A DNA stretch of 64,000 nucleotides, taken from positions 310,001 to 374,000 of the forward strand of contig NZ_VAUP01000035.1 in NCBI RefSeq assembly GCF_005871085.1, read 5' to 3'. This DNA comes from Xanthobacter autotrophicus (GTDB taxonomy: Bacteria; Pseudomonadota; Alphaproteobacteria; Rhizobiales; Xanthobacteraceae). How positions within the stretch are numbered: position 1 is the first letter of the stretch; each line of letters begins with the position of its first letter. The notes beneath the pieces were generated by a model, which was not told where the DNA came from, did not search any database, and was given only the letters and a program-made list of their open reading frames with translations. The position numbers and the translations under genes were made by a program. Positions 13,960 to 15,594 of the stretch are shown here, piece by piece.

Positions 13960-15594
13960 TCAATCCTTGTGCATCGAGATGGCGTGGGATGCCTGTCCGC
14001 TGTAGTGGACGCAGCCGTCGGCATCCATGTGGCCGGTATCTCCGATGATGTAATAGGCGCTTCCGAATCTGAATCTGGCTTTCGTTGCGGCCTCGTCCTT
14101 CCTGTAGGCACGAAACCAGAAAAGCGGCGAGCGCGGGACGTGGATCGCCAGTATTCCTTCGGTGCCCACGCCCAGTTCCGCACCATTGTCGTCGAGGACG
14201 ACCAGAGAAAAGCCGGGCGCGACCTGGCCAACGGAAACCCGGTTCAGGGAGCGGGGGTCTTGCGGGTCATGCTTCATGCCTATGATCATCCCCGTTTCGC
14301 GGTGTCCGTACTGGTTGATCAGGGGCACGCCAAGCTTCTGCGTCACCCAGGCGATGATGTCCCGAGGCAACGGCTCGCCGCCGACCGTCACCACGCGCAG
14401 CGCGAGCTGGTGCGAGGCTGTGGTGGGATCGCCGCGCCACCAGGCCTTGATCTGGGAGGGGGCGGCGGTGAGGTTGGTGACACGGAATTTCGACAGGACG
14501 CGATAGCCCTGCGAGACATCGTAAGGCCCATCGCAGAACAGGATGGAACTGCCGATCAGGAGCGGGCCGACGAGACCGTAGAAGATCCCGTATTCCCAGC
14601 CCTGGTCGGTCATGTTCCAGAACACGTCCTCGTCCCGGACATCAAGCCCGAGACGCATGTATTGCTCGATTGCGGCCAGGGCGCGGACGGGAGTGAACAG
14701 GCCGTACCTGGGTTCGACCGTCTTTGTTGAATAGGTCATGAGGAAAGGGTCGTCTGCCGCATACGTCGCGGCTTCGGCCAACGGCTCGGCCTCGTAGATC
14801 GATGACCAGAACTGGGTGACCCGGCCTTCTATGCGGTTGATGTGGTCCCCTTCCACGAGAAAGACCGGCGTTGACGGCTTGATGTATTTGCGGGCGCGCT
14901 CCACCAGCACCCGATCTGCAACGATGGCCTTGACGCCGCTCGAGTCCAGGCGGGCGTTCACCGCCGAGGCGGAATAGGTGGAGAACAGCGGCATGTAGAC
15001 GGCGCCGACCCGCCAGATGGCGAGCGCGGCGATGATCAGCTCGACGCCCTTGGGCAGCATGACGGCAACGCAATCGCCTTTCCTGATGCCGATGGTCGCC
15101 AATACACGGGCAAAGCGTGATGAATAGTCGGCAAGCCTGCCAAAGCTCAGTTCCGAAGTCTGGCCCGACACGGATTCATGGATCATGGCCGGATGCGAGC
15201 GCTTGCCGGGCAGATGCCTGTCGCAGAGCAGATGAGCGAGGGGAATGGCGTCTCCACGATACTCCGGCCGTTGATACAGGCTCGGAACCGATGCGGCATC
15301 AGGCTCCGTTGCGGTCTCCGCCGGCCTCGTGCCTGCGCGGCGGCCGAGGCTCAGGCAGAAGGCGCCGAGCGTGTAGAGGCGGGTCGCCGGATCATAGGCG
15401 AGAAGGCCTTCGTGAACGAGCGTCGCAGCCAGGCGGTGGGTCGTGGGCTTCGCCAGGCCTGTGCTCGCCATGAGATCGGCAAGCCGCGCGCCATGGCTCG
15501 GCGCGTCGGCCACCGCCCGCAGAACGGCAACGGCACGGGACAAGCTTTGAGCCCCCTTGGGGGAGGTCGAGTCGGGATCCAAAGACGCAGTCAT
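13960..15594 (-). CDS. fusion of IclR-type winged-helix DNA-binding domain with degenerate AMP-ligase-like (ANL) domain
   Basis: One uninterrupted 544-residue frame. Residues 14-85 are an IclR N-terminal winged helix ([33 protein letters not shown], then [14 protein letters not shown]). The usual IclR ligand domain is absent. From about residue 115 the protein follows acyl/acetyl-CoA synthetases: [52 protein letters not shown]. The catalytic signatures are decayed. The phosphate loop at 287-300 reads [12 protein letters not shown] instead of TSGTTGxPKG. A5 is YGHRETG instead of YGQTETG. The protein ends at 544, right after the hinge region, so the C-terminal lysine domain is missing. I infer a transcription factor whose ANL fold senses an acid, acyl-adenylate or acyl-CoA. 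A 17-bp palindrome abuts the ATG and leaves no room for a ribosome-binding site, so the mRNA may be leaderless. Two 60-base lines counted inside are 55% and 57% GC, against 62% and 72% in two lines of the preceding operon. Confidence 0.85.

Follow-up and report, generated by a model that had tools for sequence, protein, structure and literature searches.

The described regulators that come closest to the protein reported here are BzdR and BoxR, in which an XRE-type DNA-binding head is joined to a shikimate-kinase-like sensor with benzoyl-CoA as the effector; the BzdR sensor descends from shikimate kinase (PMC3602430). BzdR is the nearest idea in print: like the gene described below, BzdR/BoxR combine a DNA-binding head with a former enzyme that has lost its activity and now acts as effector domain in a regulator of a catabolic operon. 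However, the parts differ, an XRE head and a shikimate kinase fold there and an IclR head and an ANL fold here, and in the BzdR study intermediates were built as chimeras (PMC3602430), whereas here a natural homologue still carries the C-terminal domain. Regulators of the IclR family share with our protein the DNA-binding domain up to the linker helix, the divergent position next to a catabolic or import operon and the palindromic operators, but their usual effector domain is replaced here by an ANL large domain. Conversely, the ANL synthetases near Brucella 5u2a share the large-domain fold (about 30-39% identity) and the pocket core with it, whereas it lacks their phosphate loop, A5 Thr and C-terminal domain and has gained an IclR head. 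BirA, the biotin ligase/repressor, likewise has a DNA-binding head on an adenylate-handling protein, but its fold is a different one and it is active as a ligase, whereas the protein described here has lost its catalytic motifs.

The IclR-ANL regulator gene, here called REG, lies in a window of 64,000 nucleotides of Xanthobacter autotrophicus DNA. Our full-text literature searches turned up no description of such a regulator, in keeping with the preliminary description of this DNA, which knew of no family with this architecture; much subscription literature lies outside that scope, and absence from print is not proven. Among NCBIfam models none fitted REG, the best 25 of 87 families all being far below cut-off. 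From comparison of sequences, we propose that REG is probably an autoregulated, perhaps looping, repressor of an acid-import operon that uses its dead ANL domain as an acid sensor. By analogy, it may work like BzdR. If this is true, the ANL superfamily would join the few folds shown or proposed to act as effector domains of bacterial regulators, and, as acid-recognizing ANL pockets are numerous, the design would suit acid biosensors.

Domain make-up and conservation of REG

The preliminary description reported a single uninterrupted 544-residue frame and gave coordinates without a strand; the frame is as reported, and the gene lies on the minus strand (Table 1). A Pfam search (cut-off of E ≤ 0.001) placed HTH_IclR at residues 17-69 (E value of 1.7e-14) and AMP-binding at residues 131-485 (E value of 6.6e-49) and reported no IclR effector domain, no AMP-binding C-terminal domain and no XRE-type head with a shikimate-kinase-like domain. 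In a sequence search against solved structures, residues 17-86 matched the IclR structure 5tjj (E value of 4.3e-5), and from about residue 112-123 onward the protein matched acyl-CoA synthetases, best Brucella 5u2a (E value of 1.9e-70). The residues after about 112 are ANL where the IclR family would have its effector domain, and both the IclR winged helix and the ANL domain in place of the usual ligand domain were found as previously claimed. A structure model built from 11 sequences was of moderate confidence (pLDDT of 62.6 and pTM of 0.62, with about 80 in the head and less than 40 in the linker); its best PDB match was also 5u2a (E value of 9.9e-36, TM of 0.65 by query length), by which the predicted ANL large-domain fold was recovered.

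Table 1. Positions of REG, its candidate control sites and neighbouring genes (window coordinates unless a locus is named)
Feature	Position	Strand	Remark
REG, 544 aa: IclR DNA-binding domain, linker and ANL large domain, without C-terminal domain	13960..15594	-	544 codons; ATG at 15594, stop 13962-13960
HTH_IclR (Pfam)	15388..15546	-	residues 17-69
AMP-binding, ANL large domain (Pfam)	14140..15204	-	residues 131-485
Degenerate A3 phosphate loop	14701..14733	-	residues 288-298
Altered A5 motif YGHRETG	14290..14310	-	residues 429-435
C-terminal end of REG at hinge	13963..13998	-	small domain missing
Candidate operator B, TCTCACATTGTGAGA	15596..15610		two bases upstream of REG's ATG
Promoter-like site TTGAAA-17-GATAAT	15658..15686	+	faces the importer operon, between the operators
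Candidate operator A, TCTCATATTATGAGA	15701..15715		14 bp downstream of the importer operon's -10-like hexamer
ABC transporter ATPase (ABC1), branched-chain amino acid type	15764..16606	+	start picked from the sequence itself; the ATG given by the ORF finder, at 15710, falls inside operator A
FadD-like acyl-CoA ligase	16603..18567	+	canonical motifs
Two LIV-type permeases	18695..20662	+	18695-19588 and 19592-20662
Periplasmic binding protein (Peripla_BP_6)	20723..22069	+	ORF-finder start
Second LIV-type ATPase	22227..23138	+	ORF-finder start
PaaK-like ANL protein	23307..24551	+	degenerate phosphate loop
Genes flanking the G377 homologue: tannase/feruloyl-esterase family, NMT1-type importer, amidase	L158 421-2136; L057 3380-7326	- (L158)	

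A joined frame could result from faulty assembly or belong to a pseudogene in decay, and one of the 45 loci does carry a broken frame: in L136, an azospirilla-type draft of 1140 contigs, REG is interrupted mid-gene, away from the locus end, with both operators present (this locus was left out of the protein alignments, and its upstream region was kept in the operator count). Against this stand intact homologues in many independent assemblies. Full-length two-domain homologues without a stop inside the match were found in 12 of 101 relatives, the own genome included, nine of them in Xanthobacter and three in other genera of the family, with 68-97% identity when the self-match is excluded. Furthermore, dN/dS of the whole gene ranged from 0.026 to 0.185 in the eight pairs compared, indicating purifying selection in each; within the gene, the linker had the highest values and reached 0.85 in one pair. 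The operators are conserved as well. An artefact or a chance fusion, one of the outcomes that would have overturned the earlier claim, is thus ruled out by the homologues in relatives and in a second order and by dN/dS, and we give this explanation practically no weight. Nor did the analysis reveal any of the other outcomes that the preliminary description named as refuting.

As carrier counts in the relative, class, order and phylum samples revealed, the family is patchy: one genus commonly has it, so do some Xanthobacteraceae, and elsewhere among the sampled genomes it is rare. An evenly drawn class sample of 385 genomes yielded matches at E ≤ 1e-85 in the own genome, G151 and G377. In the order of G151, the joined part was present in 42 of 82 genomes, of which 41 are among the 45 genomes of its Azospirillum-type genus and one is from another genus; one further genome, G1137, matched positions 95-235 only and was not counted as a joined homologue, and 13 of the 43 matches in this order, having no loci, stand outside the operator and motif counts. 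The matches on annotated Azospirillum plasmids (H1-H13) are 49-52% identical to REG and nearly identical to members of the genus of G151, which on these grounds is taken to be Azospirillum, and L028 and L029 are plasmid records that may duplicate genomes of the G set. The order sample (297 genomes) returned only the own REG at E ≤ 1e-85; it understates the frequency of REG because other carriers seen among the relatives are absent from its result. In the 43 genomes of the order of G377 no homologue was found besides that of G377, and in the phylum sample (398 genomes) the joined protein was found only in the own genome, while five others matched the ANL part only, one of them starting at model position 71.

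Lost enzyme motifs and the proposed sensor

We compared 43 truncated regulators with nine enzymes of the nearest ligases; L021 is not among these enzymes because it yielded no open frame carrying the chosen motif. Among the 99 enzyme-invariant columns, 38 were kept in all 43 regulators and 16 in part, and 45 were lost in both regulator clades, 29 of these in the missing C-terminal domain, which in ANL enzymes helps to hold CoA. Residues 288-298 of REG occupy the place of the loop (S)TSGTTGxPKG of active relatives, and the A3 phosphate loop of ANL enzymes is degenerate there. The claimed loss of this loop stands for REG itself and for G291, T293, G294 and K297, which are lost in 43/43 truncated homologues, but does not extend to the whole loop, since the Azospirillum-type homologues retain T289, S290 and P296. 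In the A5 motif YGxTE, the Tyr, Gly and Glu are kept, whereas position 432, a Thr in 9/9 enzymes, is Arg in 43/43 truncated homologues; the motif of REG reads YGHRETG, as noted earlier. The claimed stop before the domain with the catalytic Lys stands too: this domain is missing from REG, and all 43 proteins stop at the same hinge.

In principle, REG could still form adenylates and bind DNA in addition, as a trigger enzyme of the BirA kind. The ANL fold and the retained Glu433 and Asp519 are compatible with such an activity, but the four phosphate-loop residues, the A5 Thr and the C-terminal domain are each missing in 43/43, and we rejected the active-ligase reading as very improbable on these losses, which are read from sequence. 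Because the phosphate loop is lost, the A5 Thr has become Arg and there is no C-terminal domain or catalytic Lys, the ANL large domain would no longer be catalytic and would instead be the sensor of a one-component transcription factor. It would bind the carboxylic acid of the neighboring importer and ligase, its adenylate or its CoA ester, upon which REG would release the DNA. A sensor role fits the pattern of conservation: no stretch of the aligned protein is better conserved than its core around residues 343-380, whereas the phosphate loop decays. In ANL enzymes, this core contains buried segments and segments that line the pocket.

Which of these ligands would be bound can be weighed from the residues that remain. 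The presence of Arg432 and the missing C-terminal domain would favor a free acid, whereas the kept adenine/ribose side would favor an adenylate or a nucleotide. G406, E407, Y429, E433, G518 and D519, which we take from ANL enzymology to be the adenine/ribose-side positions, are invariant in 9/9 enzymes and, in contrast to the phosphate loop, kept in 43/43 truncated homologues. Hence the effector, rather than being the free acid, may be an activated compound (acyl-adenylate or acyl-CoA) produced by the neighboring ligase, or else a nucleotide, for example AMP. The CoA-holding domain is gone, however; the ribose-side R534 is kept in only 4/12 and T517 in only 3/12 of the Xanthobacteraceae homologues, both residues being kept in the Azospirillum-type proteins, and Arg432 might have a free carboxylate as its partner instead. 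The enzyme-derived BzdR is a precedent for a CoA ester as effector (PMC3602430). Overall, we regard an activated effector as a serious but second choice.

The ANL domain might also work without a small ligand, as an oligomerization scaffold or as a reader of the state of the FadD-like or PaaK-like protein, on which it would dock. The loss of catalytic residues would suit this, as would the degenerate loop of the PaaK-like partner in 9/9 homologues checked. Such a role appears unlikely to us, as it is the pocket-region core that is most conserved and as the homologue of G377 lies beside other genes, with neither partner found in the region examined.

The same G377 homologue (L048) bears on the origin of the proposed acid sensor. 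The protein has 645 aa from the chosen start, retains the C-terminal domain PF13193 (E value of 6e-11) and has a phosphate loop that reads AGTTNSPRG; at the position of the enzymes' LPKTPSGK stands LPWALQRVTRPE, so the catalytic-lysine motif is not kept. Judged by these features, it appears to be a natural intermediate in form, and it may be ancestral in function too. In a FastTree phylogeny of the ANL part (23 regulators and nine enzymes), the regulators all grouped together with a local support of 1.0, and the G377 protein branched outside the remaining regulators with a support of 0.976. A single origin of the family is likely, albeit not proven because the enzyme sampling of the tree is narrow. 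On balance, we lean toward the fuller account in which the family arose once from an acyl-CoA synthetase, keeps an acid sensor in the disabled pocket and acts as a looping repressor on phased operators. The IclR head would have been gained first, catalysis then lost and the C-terminal domain finally shed, with Arg432 taking over the contact with a carboxylate or phosphate, and one step of this path would survive in G377. This would provide a natural case with a surviving intermediate instead of a reconstructed one. The G377 gene is divergent from a tannase/feruloyl-esterase gene and has an NMT1-type ABC importer and an amidase following it; these surroundings would again serve organic-acid release and import, through other genes.

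The divergent importer operon

The operon divergent from REG had been described as an importer plus two ANL ligases. The importer and the FadD-like ligase were confirmed, the latter with canonical TSGTTSHPK and YGQTE motifs in 4/4 cases checked, but the second ligase was not: the PaaK-like protein has SPGPI in place of the ligases' SSGTTG-like loop in 9/9 homologues, whether REG is present or absent, and may not be an ordinary ligase. The LivF-type start and the LivF reference frame were chosen by hand, and the LivF reference was trimmed to a multiple of three.

Examination of gene neighborhoods linked REG to this operon. The operon's binding protein is encoded in 12/12 REG-bearing relatives compared with 33/101 relatives overall, it shares a contig with REG in 10 of the 12 carriers, and on the short contigs L033 and L034 REG adjoins ABC1 and FadD. 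The gene order is preserved in the REG-bearing Xanthobacteraceae loci read; three azospirilla-type loci held the order as well, without the TetR and leucine-type genes (MCC subunits, enoyl-CoA hydratase and HMG-CoA lyase) that lie behind REG in the window. The genes on the far side vary, being liu-type leucine genes in Xanthobacteraceae, valine-type genes in one Azospirillum and the tannase in G377. In the annotated Azospirillum record, REG is labelled 'AMP-binding protein' in front of the valine-type genes; if our reading is true, an annotated ligase would really be a regulator. A tblastn search of nine REG-minus importer loci found no REG remnant, and the best candidate (E value of 4.9e-4) was rejected, as it lay inside the FadD region of L098. 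A literature search for the operon's substrate gave nothing useful.

Paired palindromes between REG and the importer operon

Between REG and ABC1 lie two palindromes, GTCTCATATTATGAGAC and GTCTCACATTGTGAGAC, 105 bp apart. In the own genome (5.01 Mb), the exact pattern occurs at these two places only; with two mismatches allowed, five more places per strand were found, the same number as with a reversed control. Exact sites were present in all nine Xanthobacter genomes with REG and in none of the five without it, and only beside REG (one-sided Fisher test of 0.0005, not corrected for the relatedness of the genomes); in three of the nine carriers, one site was exact and the second had diverged. 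Two palindromes with at most one mismatch were found in 44 of 45 loci, with one only in L130, compared with 0.02 sites expected in each shuffled upstream region. Similarly, the pair was present in 9/9 importer loci with REG and 0/9 without, L097 having been left out because its contig ends before ABC1; a single stray one-mismatch site of the GTCCA type stands at -308 in the REG-minus L099.

The putative promoter between the sites is a consensus match, with 0.3 expected by chance. Its TTGAAA and GATAAT hexamers are common to 12/12 Xanthobacteraceae loci, and a sigma-70-like pair facing the operon between the operators was seen in 43/45 loci, with no match found in L132. From the -10 end to operator A there are 12-14 bp in Xanthobacteraceae, 21 bp in the azospirilla type and 28 bp in G377. 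The palindromes read TCTCA-N5-TGAGA with a spacing of 104-106 bp in the 12 Xanthobacteraceae loci and GTCCA-N5-TGGAC with 116-117 bp in the 31 azospirilla-type loci, and G377 has GTCCA-type sites 138 bp apart. At 10.5 bp per turn, these spacings amount to 9.9-10.1, 11.05-11.14 and 13.14 turns, which is suggestive of helically phased operators, although there are only three independent spacing values.

In the model that we favor, the IclR head would bind a 15-17 bp palindrome at two places, immediately past the importer operon's -10 and beside the REG start codon, and REG would repress both the operon and itself. Repression, rather than activation, is suggested because the operators lie downstream of the predicted promoter and at the REG start. 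As the operator copies are a near-whole number of helical turns apart, the promoter could be looped by REG acting as a dimer of dimers; a literature search found no case of two-operator looping by an IclR regulator in the titles or abstracts of the papers listed. The operators make this model directly testable.

The operator type varies with the clade and with head residues 61, 66, 67 and 73. The two clades have no residue in common at 15 positions of the head (residues 14-90); at these, G377 is azospirilla-like at 10, Xanthobacteraceae-like at two and neither at three. As G377 branches outside, its likeness to the azospirilla heads may reflect shared ancestry. A search for GTCCAYANNRTGGAC in 15 genomes found the pair at REG in 9/9 azospirilla-type carriers and in 0/3 non-carriers of the genus, together with single sites elsewhere in carriers and non-carriers, mostly GC-cored. 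One AT-cored palindrome of the azospirilla operator type lies away from REG (G1108:C41:62259-62273). Because of these single sites and the AT-cored palindrome, further targets of REG besides the importer operon are possible.

The neighboring TetR was considered as the binder of the palindromes and is not a likely one, because four REG-minus loci (L094, L095, L096 and L099) keep TetR beside ABC1 and have no pair. Between TetR and REG lies a separate conserved element, GAAACAATCAAGCGTTC... (window 13822-13857). It is exact or has one mismatch in the window, in L063 and in the REG-minus L094, L095 and L096, and is more diverged in five others; it probably serves the leucine-type genes, as a TetR element or a promoter element.
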